From a virus, in IMG/VR virus record IMGVR_UViG_3300008952_000224, positions 1 to 29,024 of that record: 29,024 bases of DNA. One strand, written 5' to 3'. Numbering within the stretch: position 1 is the stretch's first letter; the number at the start of each line of letters is the position of its first letter. The notes below the pieces were generated by a model. The model saw only the letters and a list, made by a program, of their open reading frames with translations. It did no database searches and had not been told where the DNA came from. A program made the translations under genes and the position numbers. Below, piece by piece: positions 3,424-21,702 of the stretch.

Positions 3424-6400
3424 ATGGCTGAAGATTTATTAACAACTGAAAAGAAGCAGGAGATACGGGATTTCCTTAATCGCGGGAGTTCGCCTTCCCG
3501 CGCAAACCTACTGAAGCAAGAGGCTCAAAAAGCTGAACCTCTTACCACTCCAGAATCCATAGAAGCATTGGACGATGAGGCTTTTGAAAAAACAGTTCCC
3601 AGAATCCCAAGGTCATACGATTTCCTTCTTCACTTTGGCGCAGATAAAATAGACAAACAGAATATATTATCCCAAGTAAAATACGGGGAGGATAATGTAT
3701 TTTATAGCCCCAAACATGAAGCCTTCATAGTAAGGGAATTAGATAAGGACACGGGGAAAGCTAAATACTTCCGTTCAGACGAAAAAGGGGTAACTTGGAG
3801 GGACTTTGAAGATGTTGCAATGGGCATCCCAGCCTTTACCCCTGAAATACTTGCCTCGATTGCTGCGGCATCAAAACTGCAAGCCGCCCGACCTCAAATG
3901 CCCCAGACATGGGCTGGGTCTGCTGCCTTATTCGGGTTAAGCACCTTGGCAGGGGAATTGGCAGGTGGGCTAAAGGACGGGGTTATTAGACACTTTGGGC
4001 TAAAAACAGACCCGCGAACAAAAGAGATTGTTGGAAGGCGATCCTTGAATACAGCCCTTGGCACGGTTGGCGGAATGGGGCTTAACAGGGCTTTAAACAT
4101 AGAGGCATTGGGAGGTTCAGGGAAGATGCCTTGGATGGGGGCAACAGATGAAGAGAAGGCGTTGCTCAAGACGCTTGGGCCAGACGAACTAGCCACTCAT
4201 CAACAATTAATGTCCCGTGAGGGAGTAGAAGCCCAGAAGAGATTGCAGGGGGCTGGATACCAAGTAGACCTTACTGCGGGAATGAAGACGCAAGACAAGG
4301 GCTTGGCAACCCTTGAAAGATTAACCGCAAAACACAGTGAGCGGGTTCCAGGTATTGAAAGACCGATTGAGAAAGTGAGGGAGACTCACCAGCGTGCAGG
4401 TCAAAAGATGCAAAAAGACCTCACTAAAGGAGGGGTGGATTACGAGAAGATAGGGCAAACTGCAAAAGCTGTTATTAGTAAAGAGGAGGAGGCGTTAAGG
4501 CGAGCGGCGCAAGCCGATGCAACTGCCGCTGCGGCTGAAGTGGGAGAGCAAGCGTCCGAGCTTGGGATTCAGAATATGCCTAAAGGCTACCAACCTTCAG
4601 AAGCAGGGGCGGCGTTGCGTGAGCAACTCTCTACGAGAGCCGAGACAATGGCTGACGAGGTTACTACGCTCTACAATGCGGTTGAAAATAAATTAGCTGA
4701 AAACGGTGTAACTAATTTTGTCAAAGGCAATAACCTTGAAGAAGCTATTCTAAAATGGAGACAAAGCCTCCCATCTAAAGACGTATTAGAGACAATAGAA
4801 ACCCCTGCTAGTAAAATTTTGAAAGCAGAAGGAGGAGGAATTGTCCCTGCAACCCCCGCTGCTAAAGATGTTATTAAAAAAGAGGTTTCCCTTGGGGTTT
4901 ATGATGATGCAAGCAAGGTGGCAGATGATTGGCTTGCTATGGCTCAAAAAGAAGGTGGGCAAACTTTATCACAAGCCCAAATGAACATAAGGTCTATAGG
5001 GGAAAAGCTCCGTTCCGGAAGTTCCGAAACAGGATCAACCCCAATAGACAAACAGGCGTTAGGCAAGTTTCTGCGAGCAGCAAAGCAGGATTTGGAGGAG
5101 TCTTTCCATTCCCTCAAGATAAAAGATGCAAAACTTTCAACGATGTGGGACGAGGCAAACACAGCCCACCGACTAAAAGTTGAAGCCTTAAATTCCTCAC
5201 CTTTCTTCCAAAAAGCCTTAAAGGCCGGTAGACAGGGGGGGGCCGAAGTAAACGCACGGACACTGATTTCAGACCTTGCCTCCGGAAAGGGAAGCACTGG
5301 AGATTTGCGCTTGGTTAAGGAAATGATCCTAAAAGACCCCAACGGCGCAGCAAACTGGAACCAGTTAAGGGGTGCGGTTGTAGATGATTTAATCGGAAAA
5401 CCAATCACCATTTACAAGTCACTAGAAGAACCTTTAACGCTTTCTTCAGGTAAAATCCTCCGCAGAGGCCAGTCAGTTGAGGTGGTCGATATGGACAAGC
5501 TCGCCAAGCAAATGGCAAGGTTGGATGATGAATTTTTGCGCGAACTCTTTTCTGATCCTTCAGGCAAGAAAGTGGCCAGCATAAAGGGGATGCTTAAAGA
5601 TTGGGAGGTTATTTCCAAATCCAAAGGCAATGTGGGATTATCTAATGGAATGGATAAAGGCACATTAGATGACATCTGGCGTGAGCTTGACTCCACAAAG
5701 AACGTGTCAGCCGCCAGAAAGCGATTTAAGGACGCTATAAGAGCCGAGTATAAAAGGCGCGATGAATACATAGATTTGATTGGGAAAAACTGGAGGAACA
5801 ATGACTATGAACTGATTGCCTCAAACCCAGAGCAGTTTGTGGATGAAATACTTTTTTCAAACAAAGAAAGCGCACAAAGGATGGGGCGGGAGGTTTTCGC
5901 TAAACTTCCCCAAGATGTGCAGGACGAGGTTCGGGGGGGGATTGTAGACAGGGTATTCATTAACTCATACGATTTCATTGCTAACCCAGCATCCAGAACA
6001 AAAGCTGGGGGGATAATAGAAGGTAAAGAGTTCATTAAAAATGTTTATGGCGATGAAGGAAGAAGAAAGTTTATTCGGGAGATGCTTGGCAAAGACACTG
6101 CCAACTTATTGGATGATCTGGCGGTTATATTTAAGACAGATGAATCCTATAAAAATTTAGCAGGTCAAGCTGGCGGCTTCTCCGTGGAAGGGCAAATGGC
6201 AGCAGGAGATATTAAAGGTTTATTATCCACCGCTGGGTTGGCACGGTTGTTATTCCTAGGCCCAGTTCAAAAGCTCATCAGCACAGGGGCCGCAAACCGA
6301 ACGAGGCTTGAACAGCTTTATGCGATTAAATATGGAGTCCAAAGTCCTTGGCTCAAAAAGAAAATGAAAATGTCTGCGGCATTGGGTTTAGTGGGCGGCG

Positions 6401-6573
6401 AGAAAGCATCAGAGGAATTAGGGGAATTATCTGATTTAATGTTTGAAGCTAGATTAGAAGCCAGAAATCAAGGGCTAGATAACAGCCTCACTGGAGATGG
6501 GAATTCCCCAACCCGTGAAGACATTAAAAAGTGGCTAGGCGAGCAAAGCGATAAGACTAATCCCGACCAATGA
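3424..6573 (+). CDS. Very large virion protein (1049 aa), candidate ejection protein
   Basis: The longest gene in the window. I recognise no catalytic domain; in particular I see no convincing lytic transglycosylase motif, which some internal virion proteins carry. A Gly/Ala-rich, moderately hydrophobic stretch lies around residues 140-225 (for example GSAALFGLSTLAGELAGG), followed by Glu/Lys/Gln-rich helical segments (about 300-400). A second Gly/Ala/Leu-rich patch near residue 935 (STAGLARLLFLGPVQKL) could interact with membrane. This mix of helical and amphipathic patches in a 1000-residue protein at the end of a podovirus late module resembles DNA-ejection proteins, but that is inference. 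Its last 17 bases overlap the 3' end of the opposing regulator gene. Confidence 0.6.
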   Translation: MAEDLLTTEKKQEIRDFLNRGSSPSRANLLKQEAQKAEPLTTPESIEALDDEAFEKTVPRIPRSYDFLLHFGADKIDKQNILSQVKYGEDNVFYSPKHEAFIVRELDKDTGKAKYFRSDEKGVTWRDFEDVAMGIPAFTPEILASIAAASKLQAARPQMPQTWAGSAALFGLSTLAGELAGGLKDGVIRHFGLKTDPRTKEIVGRRSLNTALGTVGGMGLNRALNIEALGGSGKMPWMGATDEEKALLKTLGPDELATHQQLMSREGVEAQKRLQGAGYQVDLTAGMKTQDKGLATLERLTAKHSERVPGIERPIEKVRETHQRAGQKMQKDLTKGGVDYEKIGQTAKAVISKEEEALRRAAQADATAAAAEVGEQASELGIQNMPKGYQPSEAGAALREQLSTRAETMADEVTTLYNAVENKLAENGVTNFVKGNNLEEAILKWRQSLPSKDVLETIETPASKILKAEGGGIVPATPAAKDVIKKEVSLGVYDDASKVADDWLAMAQKEGGQTLSQAQMNIRSIGEKLRSGSSETGSTPIDKQALGKFLRAAKQDLEESFHSLKIKDAKLSTMWDEANTAHRLKVEALNSSPFFQKALKAGRQGGAEVNARTLISDLASGKGSTGDLRLVKEMILKDPNGAANWNQLRGAVVDDLIGKPITIYKSLEEPLTLSSGKILRRGQSVEVVDMDKLAKQMARLDDEFLRELFSDPSGKKVASIKGMLKDWEVISKSKGNVGLSNGMDKGTLDDIWRELDSTKNVSAARKRFKDAIRAEYKRRDEYIDLIGKNWRNNDYELIASNPEQFVDEILFSNKESAQRMGREVFAKLPQDVQDEVRGGIVDRVFINSYDFIANPASRTKAGGIIEGKEFIKNVYGDEGRRKFIREMLGKDTANLLDDLAVIFKTDESYKNLAGQAGGFSVEGQMAAGDIKGLLSTAGLARLLFLGPVQKLISTGAANRTRLEQLYAIKYGVQSPWLKKKMKMSAALGLVGGEKASEELGELSDLMFEARLEARNQGLDNSLTGDGNSPTREDIKKWLGEQSDKTNPDQ

Positions 6574-13443: not shown

Positions 13444-14139
13444 ATGAATGAACAACGAACACACATCGACCTCTTCAGCGGGATCGGAGGCTTCGCCCTT
13501 GCAGCCAATGCTGCTGGGTTTAGAACCAGTGTGTTCTGCGAGCAAGACGACTACTGCGCCAAAGTCCTCCGAAGACACTGGCCGAACGTCCCGATTGTCC
13601 CAGACGTTAAAGAGTTTGACGGAGGAAGATGGAAAGGAGCCGACCTGCTTACAGGAGGATTTCCCTGTCAACCATTTTCAAACGCGGGCCTCAAGCTCGG
13701 AAAAGAGGACAATGACCGTTACCTCTGGCCGGAAATGTTCCGTGTTATTAAGGAAGCAAGACCCCGTTTCGTGCTTGCTGAAAATGTTACTCCACTCGTC
13801 CGGTTGGCACTCGACGAAGTGCTTTCTGACTTGGGAAGCGAAGGGTACTCCTGCGGGACAGTTGTACTTCCAGCTTGCGCCGTCAACGCCTCTCACCGAC
13901 GACCAAGGTGTTGGGTTCTGGCCCACGCCAACAGCGAACGAGGACGCGGCGGGGAGTGTGAACGGGAATATGCAACCAATGCTGGGGAACCATCCGGCAG
14001 TCCGGAACTCCGGAACTGGGACGTTGAACCCCCTTTGGGTCGAGTGGCTCATGGGATACCCCATCGGACACACCGACTTAAAGCCCTTGGAAACGCCATA
14101 GTACCCCAAGTGGCTTATGAAATCTTAAAACATATATGA
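13444..14139 (+). CDS. dcm: DNA (cytosine-5) methyltransferase
   Basis: 231 residues. Transfers methyl from SAM to cytosine C5. Motif I is DLFSGIGGF (9-17), motif IV is GGFPCQPFS with nucleophile C75, motif VI is ENV (113-115), motif VIII is HRRPR (151-155), and the closing motif is ALGNAIVPQVA (about 215-225). All key positions are present. The target-recognition part (about 160-205) is very short, which is usual for small phage Dcm proteins but well below the 320-400 residues of bacterial ones. No restriction enzyme gene is adjacent, so it is probably an orphan methylase protecting phage DNA from host restriction. A second long frame overlaps almost the whole gene (see findings). It overlaps the next gene by ATGA. 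Confidence 0.93.
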   Translation: MNEQRTHIDLFSGIGGFALAANAAGFRTSVFCEQDDYCAKVLRRHWPNVPIVPDVKEFDGGRWKGADLLTGGFPCQPFSNAGLKLGKEDNDRYLWPEMFRVIKEARPRFVLAENVTPLVRLALDEVLSDLGSEGYSCGTVVLPACAVNASHRRPRCWVLAHANSERGRGGECEREYATNAGEPSGSPELRNWDVEPPLGRVAHGIPHRTHRLKALGNAIVPQVAYEILKHI

Positions 14140-16745: not shown

Positions 16746-16922
16746 GCATAGCTCTATTTGCCCTTCTTTGCCCTGCTCACGCCTTTTAAAGTGTCACTTG
16801 GTGATACAGTGGCGGGAGGGCAATTAGGATGCGTTAGAGGGGCGTTTAAGGGCTAAAGAGAAAGGGCCGACCGCTCGCGCAGTCGACCCGACTAGGATTC
16901 CCCCAGGAACGGGGGAAAGGGG
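16746..16922. terminator. Convergent operon end with perfect hairpin
   Basis: Non-coding gap between convergent operons. It holds TTCCCCC (16898-16904) and GGGGGAA (16911-16917), a perfect 7-base stem with a 6-base loop that could stop transcription from both sides although no T-run follows. It also carries copy 2 of the GTRTCAC element. Confidence 0.5.
16791..16807. promoter_or_regulatory. GTRTCAC element, copy 2 (full palindrome)
   Basis: GTGTCAC-TTG-GTGATAC, a 7-3-7 inverted repeat. Read on the other strand it is GTATCAC-CAA-GTGACAC, the same form as the copy at 26085-26101. It lies between the convergent operons. Confidence 0.55.
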
Positions 16923-17216
16923 TTAATCTTCATTCCATTCAGCCCAAATCTCTTTGGCTTCATCTTCAATGGCTTGCAATGCTTTCCAGAATTCGTCCAA
17001 TTCAAAGGGATATTTTAGATAATGAGGGGTGCAATCCGCGTCCGACCCTTCCACTATTGATCCCACGGCAATACCGTCCGGCTCACTTTGTATCCACGCT
17101 CCGCAATCTGTATATTTAAACGTGTTTTTTTCTACTTGGTGGAATTCGGTTTCACCAAATCCCCTTGCGTCCATAAATTCAGCAAGGTTATTAATTGTTT
17201 TTGTCTTGGTTTTCAT
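16923..17216 (-). CDS. Small acidic unknown protein
   Basis: 97 residues from ATG 17216, chosen because AAGGAG lies five bases upstream; a start at 17249 would add 11 basic residues. The C-terminus is acidic and Trp-rich (EAKEIWAEWNED). No family recognised. It is the last gene of the minus-strand operon and overlaps the gene before it by 26 bases. Confidence 0.55.
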   Translation of the reverse strand: MKTKTKTINNLAEFMDARGFGETEFHQVEKNTFKYTDCGAWIQSEPDGIAVGSIVEGSDADCTPHYLKYPFELDEFWKALQAIEDEAKEIWAEWNED

Positions 17217-17562
17217 AAGTCTCCTTCTCTGTATCTTCCTCCGGCTCAATCCAGCCTAATTCAATTGCTGCTTTTCGGACTTCTGTTAATTTTTCAATAG
17301 CTTGATGCCCGCGAGTTTCTTCTTTTTCAAGAAACTCTAAAGCCTCGCTTTTTGAGAGTTCTTCGTAGGTATGCAAGTCTCTGCCGATCCATTCTAGACG
17401 GTCTGCAAGGTCTGGGTTTGGTTCTTCTAATTCAAAAGCCGATATTTCCTCGACCCACGCAATGAATTCAGGTCGAGAACCGAACGCGAACGCTTGCGCT
17501 CGCCGTTGGTGCGGGACTTCCACAAATATAATGCCATCGTCAATTTCAGTCTTGGTTTTCAT
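17191..17562 (-). CDS. Acidic unknown protein
   Basis: 123 residues, Glu-rich, helical. No known domain. It shares the MKTKT opening with the next gene of the operon, which may mean an old duplication of the start region only. A short run of Glu and Thr precedes its end. Confidence 0.55.
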   Translation of the reverse strand: MKTKTEIDDGIIFVEVPHQRRAQAFAFGSRPEFIAWVEEISAFELEEPNPDLADRLEWIGRDLHTYEELSKSEALEFLEKEETRGHQAIEKLTEVRKAAIELGWIEPEEDTEKETYENQDKNN

Positions 17563-17602
17563 AAGGTTAATTTTACTGGGTTTTGGGTTTGGGTTAAAGG
17601 GG

Positions 17603-18160
17603 TTAATACAGTAATTCGCTTGCGTAGCCGCAAAAGTATTGACCGCGTACGCATCCGGCCATGTCTTGCCATGTCTGAAAATGGAATTGATCCGGAAATT
17701 TTCGGATATATTCCACGCGGTCTTTTACGTCGTAACAGTCCTTCCAAACGGTATCCGCCTCTTCACTTTCAAGTTCCGAAAAGTGTCCCTCATCAATCAC
17801 GGGGTAATCCTCCAAGGCGCAAGCAATTTCAGCCGCCGCTTCTAAATGCTTTGCCGCGTTTTTATGGATAGCTATCCATTCAATCCAGCCGCAAGCCCAG
17901 TGACCCTCTCGGACTATTGTCCAAGGCTCAACGTCGCCGCTATCATCTCCCCAAGCTAACTCGCCGCTATACTCTGGGGAAATTTCCTCCATAGCTTTGA
18001 CCGCGCAAGCGAAATTGCTACGCTCCAAAGCGTCGGAGTCTCTATTCTGACTGACAAAAACATAATGATTTTGCCATTCCGTGCCTCCCCAACTATCGGG
18101 CCGCGTCCATTTTTGGAGGTATCGCAAGGTGTTTTCTTCTAAATGTTCCAAAGGTTTCAT
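17603..18160 (-). CDS. Unknown Trp-rich acidic protein
   Basis: 185 residues with many Trp, Tyr and Cys (for example GHWACGWIEWIAIH). I recall similar hypothetical proteins in other phages but no function. No catalytic motif is visible. It lies within the minus-strand operon with a weak ribosome-binding site. Confidence 0.55.
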   Translation of the reverse strand: MKPLEHLEENTLRYLQKWTRPDSWGGTEWQNHYVFVSQNRDSDALERSNFACAVKAMEEISPEYSGELAWGDDSGDVEPWTIVREGHWACGWIEWIAIHKNAAKHLEAAAEIACALEDYPVIDEGHFSELESEEADTVWKDCYDVKDRVEYIRKFPDQFHFQTWQDMAGCVRGQYFCGYASELLY

Positions 18161-18164
18161 AATT

Positions 18165-18359
18165 CTAATAGGTTAAGTTTTGTTCCTGGTGGAATATCCT
18201 TTGCCCAGTGGGGCTTGTGATATGGTAAATCGCCCGTGTTCGGGGATCATAAGCGCAAAGCTCGCCCCGCCGGATTGAATAGCCGGTTTCTAGGCATCGG
18301 CTAATGAATCGCGCTTTGATTACGCGGGGGTCGGTTACTGTTTGAAAACGGGTAATCAT
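18165..18359 (-). CDS. Small basic unknown protein
   Basis: 64 residues from ATG 18359. A longer frame to 18503 would run through the upstream zinc-finger gene and is unlikely. Arg-rich, with PRVIKARFISRCLETGYSIR suggesting a helix and strands. It starts five bases after the preceding gene ends. No family recognised. Confidence 0.5.
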   Translation of the reverse strand: MITRFQTVTDPRVIKARFISRCLETGYSIRRGELCAYDPRTRAIYHITSPTGQRIFHQEQNLTY

Positions 18360-18364
18360 GGCTT

Positions 18365-18580
18365 TTAGTCTCCGTTGTATTGGTTTTGCAGTTGGTAAAA
18401 ATCCGTTTGCCTTGGGATTGATCCATAGTCGGCCAAGGTTAACGGGGAAAAATCCGCGTGCCTTGGCGTGCCAAGAATGCTTTGCAAGAAATCTTGGCGG
18501 CATTCTTTAGAGCATAGGGGCAAGCTCAATTTAGTGTTGCTTTTCGTTTGTTCCCCGCATTGTATACAATTGTGAATCAT
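18365..18580 (-). CDS. Small zinc-finger protein
   Basis: 71 residues. CIQCG near residue 5 and CSKEC near residue 23 form a treble-clef-like CxxC...CxxxC pair, as in small zinc-binding phage proteins. A Gln/Tyr-rich tail follows. It begins four bases after the Cys-rich 230-residue gene stops. Confidence 0.6.
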   Translation of the reverse strand: MIHNCIQCGEQTKSNTKLSLPLCSKECRQDFLQSILGTPRHADFSPLTLADYGSIPRQTDFYQLQNQYNGD

Positions 18581-18584
18581 GACT

Positions 18585-19277
18585 TTAACCTTTTGCTATT
18601 TCACCGGCTTTTCGTTTGCTTGCCCCATGAGCCGGAAAACCGACAATTGCGCTTCGTTGCTTCTGGCAAAGCTGGCAAGATTCACAACTTGCGTCTTTGC
18701 CATCAATAGTGGCTGGGCATTGGACAACCCTGCGCCCTTTTGGCGTTTCGGTGTTTCCCGTATGATCCACCGGCAAAACACAAACTACCGGCCCGATATT
18801 TAAATCTGCGAGCTTGTCAGCTTCGCGCAGATTGTTTGCCGACAAATTAACCGTGAAACCGGCTTTATTAGCTTTTTGAACTAATTGCCTATTCTTGGCG
18901 TTTTTCAATACTGGCTTGTGGGTATAGGTAAATCCACGTTTGCCAGCATTGGCCTTTGTCAATTGACGTAACAGATTGCCGTCAATGTTGTTGTCAAAAC
19001 CTGGTAAATCACCGGCTTGATTATGCCGCCAAAATTGTCCGTCTGGTAAACCGGCTATTTTGCCAAGAAACAAACGCCAGTTTTCCCCGCGTTGTCTTTT
19101 GGTTACCTTTAGCCAATGCATACCCAAAGGCCCACCATCAGCATAACAGCCATTTTTCTTGAATGGACAAGCTGATGGGCAAGACTCCGCGCTTGTCGTA
19201 GTAACGGGGATTTTCCCCGTTTTTCTATTTGATGAAACCAACGTCAAATGAACATTGGGGATTGTACGCTTTGCCAT
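18585..19277 (-). CDS. Conserved Cys-rich phage/plasmid protein (DUF7227-like)
   Basis: 230 residues. The N-terminal CPSACPFKKNGCYA and C-terminal CPAT, then CESCQLCQ and IVGFPAHG, are hallmarks of a family I know from phages and plasmids without an assigned function, and I tentatively equate it with DUF7227. Eight or so Cys residues could bind a metal or an Fe-S cluster. The first cluster recalls, but does not match, radical-SAM CxxxCxxC. Its translation start follows AAAACTAGGAT, the shared leader of this operon. The gap before it carries three hairpins. Function unknown. Confidence 0.6.
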   Translation of the reverse strand: MAKRTIPNVHLTLVSSNRKTGKIPVTTTSAESCPSACPFKKNGCYADGGPLGMHWLKVTKRQRGENWRLFLGKIAGLPDGQFWRHNQAGDLPGFDNNIDGNLLRQLTKANAGKRGFTYTHKPVLKNAKNRQLVQKANKAGFTVNLSANNLREADKLADLNIGPVVCVLPVDHTGNTETPKGRRVVQCPATIDGKDASCESCQLCQKQRSAIVGFPAHGASKRKAGEIAKG

Positions 19278-19280
19278 TTT

Positions 19281-19291
19281 ATCCTAGTTTT
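19281..19291 (-). promoter_or_regulatory. Shared AAAACTAGGAT leader (gene ending 18585)
   Basis: On the minus strand AAAACTAGGAT precedes the ATG by three bases. The same 11-mer stands before the genes starting at 19973, 20549 and 20751, and as AAGACTAGGAT before the gene starting at 21004. Its AGGA is the likely Shine-Dalgarno core, but the flanks are conserved as well. Confidence 0.6.
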
Positions 19292-19334
19292 CTCCTCCCT
19301 AGGGGCGTGCGCAAACACGTTTGCCGGTTGTTCT

Positions 19335-19424
19335 ATCCTAGTCAGTCCGGCTCCCTAGGGATTTCCTGACTAGGTTTTGTGTTAATCACACAAGGCAAAC
19401 ACCAGTGTTCCTGGTGCTTGCACA
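19335..19424. repeat. Cluster of three hairpins in an intercistronic gap
   Basis: CCTAGTCAG (19337-19345) and CTGACTAGG (19366-19374) are 9-base perfect arms. TTGTGT and ACACAA (19377-19393) form the next hairpin. GCAA-A-CACCAG and CTGGTG-C-TTGC (19395-19421) form a 10-pair stem with one mismatch. They fill the space between the clamp-like gene and the Cys-rich gene. They may protect or terminate part of the transcript. Confidence 0.5.
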
Positions 19425-19430
19425 ATGGGA

Positions 19431-19973
19431 TTAATCGCGGGTTGGCATTAAGATGCCTTTTCCGCCGGTTGTCTTTTCTTCAATGATGAGGGCGGCGCGT
19501 GGATCAATTTGACCAGTGGCCGGATTTGTTTCTATTTGCAATTTTACATTGTCATTAGGGCAACCTATGGCTTGCGCTAATTCATAAAGAAATTTTGCAT
19601 TAAAACTGATGGTTTGCCGTGGGTTATCATTAGGCGGGACAACTTGCCGCCAGTTAGGATATTTCAAGTCTGTCCTGATGGGGTAAATTTCCCCGTTTGG
19701 CATCATGGCCGCGCCATTTAAGCCAATGGTGCTTTCTTTTGCTTGCTTGGCTTGTTTCCTTGCCTCAATCAATGCCTTGGGGAACATTAGCTTTTGACCC
19801 TCTAACTGATCTTCGTCAGCTATCTCAACAGGAACAACAGCCATTCTCCGGCCATCAGTTGCAACGGCGTTTGCTTTCCCGTCTTTTGATTCAATCAAGA
19901 TTGATAGCAACGCTTCGCGGCTTTCATCTTTTGATACTACTTTCTCGAGTTTGCACGTTTTTGGTATTTTCAT
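19431..19973 (-). CDS. Beta-clamp (DnaN)-like protein, half length
   Basis: 180 residues, about half of a 366-residue DnaN. Signatures of the clamp fold are AVATDGRRMAVVP (about 37-49), YPNWRQVVP (about 105-113, compare the clamp's Y/F-P-x-Y/W...P) and a C-terminal GILMPTRD like the clamp's VMPMR ending. It could dimerise or trimerise into a ring, or form a clamp-decoy or loader-binding protein. No phage polymerase is present in the window, so it would have to serve the host polymerase or compete with the host clamp. Preceded by the shared leader. Confidence 0.7.
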   Translation of the reverse strand: MKIPKTCKLEKVVSKDESREALLSILIESKDGKANAVATDGRRMAVVPVEIADEDQLEGQKLMFPKALIEARKQAKQAKESTIGLNGAAMMPNGEIYPIRTDLKYPNWRQVVPPNDNPRQTISFNAKFLYELAQAIGCPNDNVKLQIETNPATGQIDPRAALIIEEKTTGGKGILMPTRD

Positions 19974-19979
19974 TGGTTT

Positions 19980-19990
19980 ATCCTAGTTTT
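19980..19990 (-). promoter_or_regulatory. Shared AAAACTAGGAT leader (clamp-like gene)
   Basis: Minus-strand AAAACTAGGAT six bases before the clamp-like ATG at 19973. Confidence 0.6.
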
Positions 19991-19999
19991 TATTGGTTA

Positions 20000-20185
20000 T
20001 TATTTGCAGTGATAGGTTGGGATTGAATCGGCGAGTAAATCCATTAGCTCTGGCTTATCATTAATATCATCAATTTCAATGTTTTGGGTTACGGTGATGA
20101 ATTGCCCGAAATCGCTTTTATAAGTGAAAGAAACGCTATATTCATCCTCTACAATGTGGGTGATTGAATTTATTTTAATATTCAT
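20000..20185 (-). CDS. Small unknown protein
   Basis: 61 residues, mostly predicted beta (INSITHIVEDEYSVSFTYKS). Its start follows the preceding stop by one base. No family recognised. Confidence 0.5.
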   Translation of the reverse strand: MNIKINSITHIVEDEYSVSFTYKSDFGQFITVTQNIEIDDINDKPELMDLLADSIPTYHCK

Positions 20186-20186
20186 A

Positions 20187-20549
20187 TTACGCCGCTAGTT
20201 GAATTAATAACGCGGCGCAGCTTGCTCCCTTTGCCAAGCTAATCCGGATCAAGCCTTGGCAGAATTCCACCGTTACTTGCTCGCCAATCTTGCCAACCTT
20301 TGACAAGTCAAGGTTGCCCGTCTGGTTTAAGTCAATCACCGGCAATTTGTTCCCGTGATTCATTACACCAGCAACCTTGCGTTTGCCGTCCTTGTTGGGC
20401 CGTATTTCAATCGTGGAGCCGGTTTGAGTGATTTCAATAGGTTGACCTATGGTAAATCCGCCGTCGATCATGGCGCGATTCCAAAGGCAGATTCTAGCAA
20501 TGTTTTTCTTGCTACCTATGTTTTGATTTTGTGTCTTGATGGTTTTCAT
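20187..20549 (-). CDS. AbrB/SymE-like small protein
   Basis: 120 residues from ATG 20549, directly after the shared leader; a start at 20573 would lie upstream of that leader. Core IARICLWNRAMIDGGFTIGQ, PIEITQTGSTIEIRPN resembles the swapped-hairpin AbrB or SymE fold (a GF...G...I...G..I.I pattern). The sequence then continues KLPVIDLNQTGNLD and VTVEFCQGLIRIS as a second such repeat. Such phage proteins may be DNA- or RNA-binding regulators. The assignment is by pattern only. Confidence 0.5.
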   Translation of the reverse strand: MKTIKTQNQNIGSKKNIARICLWNRAMIDGGFTIGQPIEITQTGSTIEIRPNKDGKRKVAGVMNHGNKLPVIDLNQTGNLDLSKVGKIGEQVTVEFCQGLIRISLAKGASCAALLIQLAA

Positions 20550-20550
20550 A

Positions 20551-20561
20551 ATCCTAGTTTT
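20551..20561 (-). promoter_or_regulatory. Shared AAAACTAGGAT leader
   Basis: Minus-strand AAAACTAGGAT two bases before ATG 20549. Confidence 0.6.
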
Positions 20562-20751
20562 AGAGTGTTTCAAATTCTGGCTTGTCTGCCGGTGCTGTTG
20601 GAAAGTCGATTGTGTTCAATGGCTCCAGCTTTAGACAAGCTGCGCCAATAGCGTTGGCGTCAATGTCTTGCGGTATTGCTTCCGCATCAATCGCCCGCTT
20701 TACAAACAGCCATAGTGCGTAGCGTTCGTTTACAGTGAGTGGTGTTTTCAT
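20560..20751 (-). CDS. Small unknown protein
   Basis: 63 residues, helical (NERYALWLFVKRAIDAEAIP). Its stop overlaps the leader of the next gene. No family recognised. Confidence 0.5.
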   Translation of the reverse strand: MKTPLTVNERYALWLFVKRAIDAEAIPQDIDANAIGAACLKLEPLNTIDFPTAPADKPEFETL

Positions 20752-20752
20752 A

Positions 20753-20763
20753 ATCCTAGTTTT
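20753..20763 (-). promoter_or_regulatory. Shared AAAACTAGGAT leader
   Basis: Minus-strand AAAACTAGGAT one base before ATG 20751. A partial copy (AAACTAGGA) lies at 20769-20777. Confidence 0.55.
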
Positions 20764-20770
20764 AATGGTC

Positions 20771-21004
20771 CTAGTTTGCTAAAACTTCATTGTCAAATTC
20801 ATCCATTACACGTTGCCATCCACAATCAATGTAGTATTCAGCGTCTTCAATCGGTAAGCATTCCAGCCAACCAATAATTCGCCAGCTTGCAACGTATGAT
20901 TCGCGCTGTCTCAATTCCAGATCATCAGAATGATCTGTTAGGTTATTTAGTATCCACGAGATTAAATGTTCCCTCTGGAATTCGGTGAGTATTATATTCT
21001 GCAT
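20771..21004 (-). CDS. Small acidic unknown protein
   Basis: 77 residues, Trp- and acid-rich (SWRIIGWLECLPIEDAEYYI). First gene of the minus-strand operon. AAGACTAGGAT stands before its ATG. No family recognised. Confidence 0.55.
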   Translation of the reverse strand: MQNIILTEFQREHLISWILNNLTDHSDDLELRQRESYVASWRIIGWLECLPIEDAEYYIDCGWQRVMDEFDNEVLAN

Positions 21005-21180
21005 AATCCTAGTCTTTCATTAACCGGCGGATTCATTCCGACCGGCTGAAATCAAAGTCTCATGGATTCCCTTTCCCGTCAATAATTATTTCGGCACAAT
21101 GTATCACGTTATTCACAATAGATTTGAATAAATGGCTCGCAATCCCAGTCCCTAGATACTAAAACACCTTACTTTTTATT
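21005..21180. promoter_or_regulatory. Divergent promoter region (minus operon / terminase)
   Basis: No gene. It holds the leader copy at 21006-21016, a hairpin CCGGCGGA/TCCG-A-CCGG (21024-21045) in the minus-strand leader, a minus-strand TTGACG hexamer near 21075, and copy 3 of the GTRTCAC element at 21098-21110. Both the minus operon and terS should start here. Confidence 0.5.
21098..21110 (+). promoter_or_regulatory. GTRTCAC element, copy 3 (before terS)
   Basis: AATGTATCACGTT, one base different from AATGTGTCACGTT at 23636-23648. It lies 71 bases before the terminase gene. Confidence 0.5.
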
Positions 21181-21636: not shown

Positions 21637-21675
21637 GAATATGCCTGTAATTGTGGGTTATTCTGAAACAGTCTA

Positions 21676-21692
21676 CTAGTTTGGTAAACTAG
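21676..21692 (+). repeat. Hairpin just upstream of terL
   Basis: CTAGTTT-GGT-AAACTAG, a perfect 7-base stem with a 3-base loop ending 10 bases before the terL ATG. No Shine-Dalgarno sequence is visible between them, so it could affect terL initiation. Confidence 0.5.
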
Positions 21693-21702
21693 CTCCCTAA
21701 TC

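Follow-up and report, generated by a model that had tools for sequence, protein, structure and literature searches.

A CTAGGA leader and a covarying pseudoknot RNA in an opposing gene block of a viral contig: a candidate phage riboregulator

Why would five genes of a single phage block carry nearly the same leader at their starts? The question is raised by IMG/VR virus record IMGVR_UViG_3300008952_000224, a 29,024-base viral contig (hereafter the window, i.e., the whole stretch of DNA that was analysed), in which an opposing block of eleven genes (g1 to g11) occupies the minus strand. A first-pass annotation had pointed to the leader and suggested that it may be a target of coordinated control. 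Here we describe this leader, with CTAGGA at its core, together with a structured RNA of about 150 nucleotides (nt) that was absent from that annotation, is the strongest feature of the block, and contains the leader motif in one of its loops.

The CTAGGA leader stays while the adjoining genes change

The leader (consensus AAAACTAGGAT, or RCTAGGAY) lies in one orientation a few nt upstream of start codons. As first described, nearly identical copies precede five genes, four of them exact (AAAACTAGGAT) and one with a single mismatch (AAGACTAGGAT), and the ATGs named for them (19277, 19973, 20549, 20751, and 21004) were all correct; a sixth copy stands in tandem before g2:

21006..21016, minus strand: leader AAGACTAGGAT (one mismatch to AAAACTAGGAT) before g1, ATG 21004
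20768..20778, minus strand: extra leader CAAACTAGGAC before g2, in tandem with the next copy
20753..20763, minus strand: leader AAAACTAGGAT before g2, ATG 20751
20551..20561, minus strand: leader AAAACTAGGAT before g3, ATG 20549
19980..19990, minus strand: leader AAAACTAGGAT before the clamp-like gene g5, ATG 19973
19281..19291, minus strand: leader AAAACTAGGAT before the DUF7227 gene g6, ATG 19277; can pair with the anti-leader strand described below

All four exact copies in the window are on the minus strand, and the leader is present at only 5 of the 11 block genes. A search allowing two mismatches found 9 sites against 9.2 expected, which is no excess over chance; the signal therefore lies in the exact motif and in the CTAGGA core, of which the block strand has 7 within 1.8 kb, where its frequency in the rest of the window would predict 0.1. 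Over all loci, CTAGGA is mostly 1–12 nt from the ATG (about half of the copies at 1–4 nt, others at 17 and 24 nt), and tandem copies 13–18 nt apart occur in the window and in two related loci (L026 and L027; related loci are given by our labels throughout). The gene that follows the structured RNA in L093 has no upstream leader and carries CTAGGA in codons 2–4. Elsewhere in the phage, genes lack this leader, and their Shine-Dalgarno sequences are mostly weak. Because the spacing is often 1–4 nt, and because the motif falls just past the ATG in L093, the leader is not an ordinary ribosome-binding site; it looks like something more, namely a shared target of coordinated post-transcriptional control.

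Searching with the clamp-like protein returned nine related contigs (48–87% identity), and pattern scans added more. Most of the extra loci from these scans (L033–L041, L079–L092, and L094–L120) were chance matches in which the fold described below was absent, and one genome fragment (L061) had a clamp match but no leader. The CTAGGA leader precedes the clamp gene in 9/9 clamp relatives. It also precedes the first block gene of most relatives, within GTTAATGAAAGACTAGGA or close variants, and these first genes differ. Three loci (L021, L024, and L121) lack the clamp gene in its usual position, and in L021 and L024 a different gene with the leader takes its place. In total, 15 related loci retain the leader next to changing genes. 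Of the co-conservation of leader and gene set that the first-pass annotation had proposed to look for, the leader part was thus found, and the gene content proved hypervariable. Genes scattered behind unrelated leaders, which it had named as the contrary outcome, were not encountered; the opposite was seen, a constant leader with changing genes.

A structured RNA with covarying helices and a pseudoknot

Between the clamp-like and DUF7227 genes, the minus strand holds a structured RNA of ~150 nt (19275-19434) that begins with a long hairpin and continues into a three-helix fold with a pseudoknot, the leader motif lying in a loop. The structured region keeps the same position relative to the leader among relatives. 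Its parts are as follows:

19382..19434, minus strand: helix P1, a long hairpin taking in the clamp stop codon, arms TTAATCCC...GTGATTAA
19275..19376, minus strand: pseudoknot RNA element (covariance model R1)
19374-19366, minus strand: 5′ strand of the pseudoknot, the anti-leader CCTAGTCAG
19361-19353/19304-19296, minus strand: helix P2
19351-19347/19327-19323, minus strand: helix P3
19345-19337, minus strand: 3′ strand of the pseudoknot, CTGACTAGG
19319-19316/19309-19306, minus strand: helix P4

After P1 come the strand CCUAGUC(AG), P2, hairpin P3, hairpin P4, the second side of P2, and the leader. The pseudoknot forms between CCUAGUC and the P3 loop (CUGACUAGGAUARGAACAA) and has an A-rich third loop; its predicted strands are CCUAGUC and CUGACUAGG.

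A covariance model built on 14 copies recovered all 14 and also found L121 (1e-20) and L093 (1e-8), which were outside model building; L015 is a truncated copy. There are 16 full copies (E ≤ 3e-9), one per contig. In the alignment of these 16 copies, 95.6% of cells pair, and pairs changed on both sides numbered 15 against 6.9 in shuffles (0/500), with 0–5 left when the partner was shifted by 1–3 columns. The compensatory changes thus exceed both the shuffled and the shifted controls, as is generally expected of a structured cis-regulatory RNA. Counts at P2 are conservative, because some rows of this alignment are out of register there; aligned by hand, P2 pairs fully in 16/16 copies. The hand alignment contains compensatory changes in all helices, and in the pseudoknot the sixth pair changes from U-A to C-G, with more changes in the extension. 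An alignment-free swap test, in which phylogeny is ignored, gave stronger pairing for P2, P3, and the pseudoknot with their own arms than with swapped ones (p ≤ 0.0004), and the arms of P1 covary likewise (−25.3 kcal/mol own vs −17.0 kcal/mol swapped; p < 0.0001). Hand-aligned P2 passes through U-G but no C-A intermediates, and the U-G pairs speak for the block-strand RNA as the molecule that folds. Rfam gave no match at the gathering threshold for the whole window, and only chance-level matches at E up to 10 for the element, which is a candidate phage riboregulator not in Rfam. This adds a class of structured RNA unmatched in Rfam, with a single copy in each of 16 viral contigs.

A second P1-like hairpin, ending in TTGTGYGATTA, stands before the clamp leader in L011, L012, L014, and L019. 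Since it recurs upstream of that leader in several relatives, P1 may be a separate repeated module, e.g., an RNA processing site.

The gene that follows the element is of at least seven unrelated kinds among the 16 copies (aa, amino acids):

DUF7227: window, L042
DUF7249: L017, L018
DUF1419: L027
149-aa family: L012, L013, L021, L024
163-169-aa family: L014, L019, L026
second 149-aa family: L016, L121
single cases: L011, L093

A proposed switch and its rivals

The first five pseudoknot pairs, CCUAG:CUAGG, never vary, whereas most other helix positions do. They form the longest invariant run and are common to two alternative pairings: CCUAG is also able to pair with CUAGG at the downstream start in 16/16 copies (at least six pairs in 13, the five-pair core in the rest), and in L093 the anti-leader pairs across the AUG start codon (11 bp). 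Nested folding prefers the anti-leader:leader pairing in nearly all folded sequences, with a probability of 0.68–0.99 in the six examined.

We propose that the block is a variable accessory operon under post-transcriptional control, in which the CTAGGA leaders at start codons would serve as shared translational operators and the cis-acting structured RNA, downstream of the clamp-like gene or its replacement, would be the control element. When CCUAG(U/C)C is paired with the P3 loop, the pseudoknot would be formed and the downstream start site open; when it instead pairs with CUAGG in the leader of the gene that follows, the start would be masked. The other leaders could be acted on by the same CCUAG strand or by a trans factor recognising GRCUAGGAYA. 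The block thus appears to be governed by RNA and not by what its genes encode. Such a system would show how a phage can exchange accessory genes while a single signal continues to control them. Our best reading, which we consider fairly probable, is a new phage riboregulator whose translational operators are shared among genes. The earlier idea of the leader as a target of coordinated control therefore holds in part: the leader is conserved and a covarying RNA contains it and can pair with it, while its effect on translation is inferred.

Four observations weigh against this proposal. Covariation between anti-leader and leader is absent (own no better than swapped, p = 0.94; p = 0.16 with longer segments), and because this test failed the switch is proposed from invariance. 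The sixth anti-leader:leader pair fails in 3/16 copies, the leaders of g1, g2, g3, and g5 have no anti-leader nearby, and no trans factor was identified among the proteins scanned, which did not cover all open reading frames (ORFs). A second complement of the leader was read directly from the end of the block:

16890..16899, minus strand: exposed AATCCTAGTC, the leader complement, flanked by two hairpins at the block's 3′ end

A similar strand is found at the same place in nine relatives (L011, L014, L016, L018, L019, L024, L027, L093, and L121); L017 is without it. Its pairing with own leaders was not significantly better than with swapped ones (p = 0.086). A bolder version, in which every inserted cassette would be addressed by a CTAGGA start tag and the pseudoknot RNA together with the 3′-terminal AATCCTAGTC would act as a cis/trans antisense switch over all tagged genes, an operon-wide riboregulatory code, is speculative and in our view unlikely.

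Alternatively, the leaders could be targets of a phage-encoded RNA-binding repressor (T4 RegA-like or CsrA-like), with the pseudoknot as a high-affinity or autoregulatory site and no switching by the CCUAG pairing. Such a protein would account for the string GRCTAGGAYA that is common to leaders and pseudoknot loop; ACUAGGAU is one base off the CsrA-type core ACANGGAU, and several small uncharacterised backbone genes common to these phages also speak for it. However, CUAGG is base-paired in the pseudoknot and single-stranded in the leaders, so that one protein would need to read both forms, and no regA or csrA homologue was present among the proteins scanned, a set that left out some ORFs. We regard a repressor as possible but doubtful.

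The leader holds AGGA and precedes start codons, which would fit a strong, non-regulatory start signal used by this phage group. This explanation is hard to reconcile with copies of which about half are at 1–4 nt, some 11–24 nt upstream, and others in tandem 13–18 nt apart, with the copy within a coding region, or with the same phage's other genes, which lack the leader; we give it little credence. Equally improbable, in our estimate, is that leader and RNA element are conserved boundaries that promote cassette swapping by recombination, regulation being secondary. DUF7227, DUF7249, DUF1419, and several orphan families do share one slot between conserved flanks, as expected of such boundaries, yet recombination requires sequence identity, and here the helices change sequence while pairing persists, which together with the U-G but no C-A intermediates in P2 points to RNA structure. 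A metabolite riboswitch governing the downstream gene is very improbable and was dropped as a leading idea because, although a pseudoknot with a conserved A-rich loop near a start codon is the architecture of several riboswitches, the downstream genes (at least seven families) are unrelated between phages rather than associated with one pathway, and no Rfam riboswitch matched.

The block, its surroundings, and known systems

Integrase, Erf, exonuclease, methyltransferase, and primosomal genes precede the opposing block in the window, and genes for the small and large terminase, portal, and major head protein follow it. The eleven ORFs, the divergent promoter region, and the terminator are consistent with one operon, as the first-pass annotation had it:

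16864-21082, minus strand: whole block, promoter to terminator
21054..21082, minus strand: predicted sigma-70-type promoter, TTGACG (21082-21077), 17-nt spacer, GACTTT (-10-like, 21059-21054)
21024..21048, minus strand: hairpin at the predicted mRNA 5′ end, arms CAGCCGGTCGGA..TCCGCCGG
20771..21004, minus strand: g1, 77 aa, no family
20560..20751, minus strand: g2, 63 aa, no family
20187..20549, minus strand: g3, 120 aa, AbrB-like label unconfirmed
20000..20185, minus strand: g4, 61 aa, without leader
19431..19973, minus strand: g5, 180-aa truncated beta-clamp homologue, DnaN middle domain (PF02767, 1.2e-6; phrog_947, 4e-13)
18585..19277, minus strand: g6, DUF7227 protein, 230 aa (PF23872, 4e-90; phage homologues)
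18365..18580, minus strand: g7, 71 aa, Cys-containing (YacG only, E = 0.04)
18165..18359, minus strand: g8, 64 aa
17603..18160, minus strand: g9, 185 aa (weak phrog_4313, 2.7e-4)
17191..17562, minus strand: g10, 123 aa
16923..17216, minus strand: g11, 97 aa
16864..16889, minus strand: strong intrinsic terminator, 11-bp stem, GCGA loop, TTTCTCTTT

Since the promoter scanner did not list TTGACG-17-GACTTT, the promoter is predicted from conservation, TTGACR standing at the same place in most relatives. The arms of the 5′-end hairpin pair more strongly with each other than with swapped ones (10 phages; p = 0.0002).

Among the protein labels given earlier, clamp-like and DUF7227 were confirmed by the matches listed for g5 and g6, whereas AbrB-like (g3) found no support in Pfam or PHROGs, nor did the zinc-protein label of g7 beyond its YacG match. 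The g5 protein matched the clamps 6man and 1vpk of the Protein Data Bank, and its profile retrieves host-type clamps of ~370 aa. The match takes in the middle domain and some of the one after it, in 180 aa as against about 370 for a three-domain clamp, and the first clamp domain is absent; the AlphaFold model is too poor to judge (pLDDT 46). The g5 protein may act as a mini-clamp or else inhibit the clamp of the host. Pfam and PHROGs scans of the block and relative genes yielded no known defence or anti-defence families (PADLOC was not run), and the takeover or defence module suggested at first gained no such function for any gene; a role of this kind is possible but unproven, because the genes after the RNA element have no known function.

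The large terminase groups these phages near Verrucomicrobiota phages and prophages, on which basis these marine phages probably infect Verrucomicrobiota. The RNA model had no match in Akkermansia phages and phage P8625, nor in 384 genomes of one host class, where stricter filters make this weak evidence of absence; a clamp alignment search of host genome contigs found no relative.

Elsewhere in the window, a C5-cytosine methyltransferase ORF (PF00145, 7e-41; 13444-14139, plus strand) contains a second ORF of 217 aa in the +1 frame (13448-14101, plus strand) that matches phrog_1008 (6e-25). Six homologues keep the second frame open, five of them beyond codon-shuffled expectation, and synonymous differences in the methyltransferase are suppressed (8–11% vs 21–44% for other genes compared in those phage pairs). 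The arrangement resembles a dual-coding overlapping gene, with a recent transfer of the methyltransferase gene as a possible alternative. The gap between the terminase genes (about 21640-21700; also in L011, L014, L018, and L024) contains conserved CTAGTTTAC/GTAAACTAG-type inverted repeats, possibly a packaging site. A 1049-aa protein (3424-6573, plus strand) has no PHROG match; one sister contig has a weakly similar protein.

Pseudoknots of ribosomal-protein leaders and of riboswitches likewise lie immediately before a start codon, where they may pair in an alternative way with the start region; unlike them, the RNA described here has no Rfam match, is not bound to one gene or pathway, and has a loop motif that recurs in leaders at other places in the operon. 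Translational repression by T4 RegA (reviewed in PMC3014915) offers a functional analogy only: a common operator at many phage gene starts would permit coordinated translational control, but the present system has a structured RNA that carries a complementary strand, and no RegA homologue was found among the PHROGs-scanned proteins, which did not include every ORF.

The closest parallel is with the start-associated sequences (SAS) and extended SAS (ESAS) of cluster K mycobacteriophages (Pope et al., 2011, PMC3203893; 2025 survey, PMC12699233). SAS are short asymmetric repeats in one orientation, a few nt from the starts of many non-structural, unrelated genes (PMC3203893); their function is unknown, with a role in translation suspected (PMC3203893, PMC12699233). 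Similarly, the leader described here lies close upstream of the starts of many genes in one orientation and is kept while adjacent gene families differ. Its sequence, AAAACTAGGAT, departs from the 13-bp SAS consensus GGGATAGGAGCCC (PMC3203893), which contains a full AGGAG, and it occurs in phages linked to Verrucomicrobiota rather than in mycobacteriophages. ESAS are 17-bp imperfect inverted repeats and, according to their authors, not RNA hairpins, whereas the upstream structures here covary as RNA helices and the pseudoknot both holds the motif and can pair with it. The CTAGGA leader thus adds a second, independent example of start-associated repeats, unexplained since 2011 in mycobacteriophages, and one for which a concrete and testable mechanism may be proposed, in which the repeat pairs with one strand of a pseudoknot.

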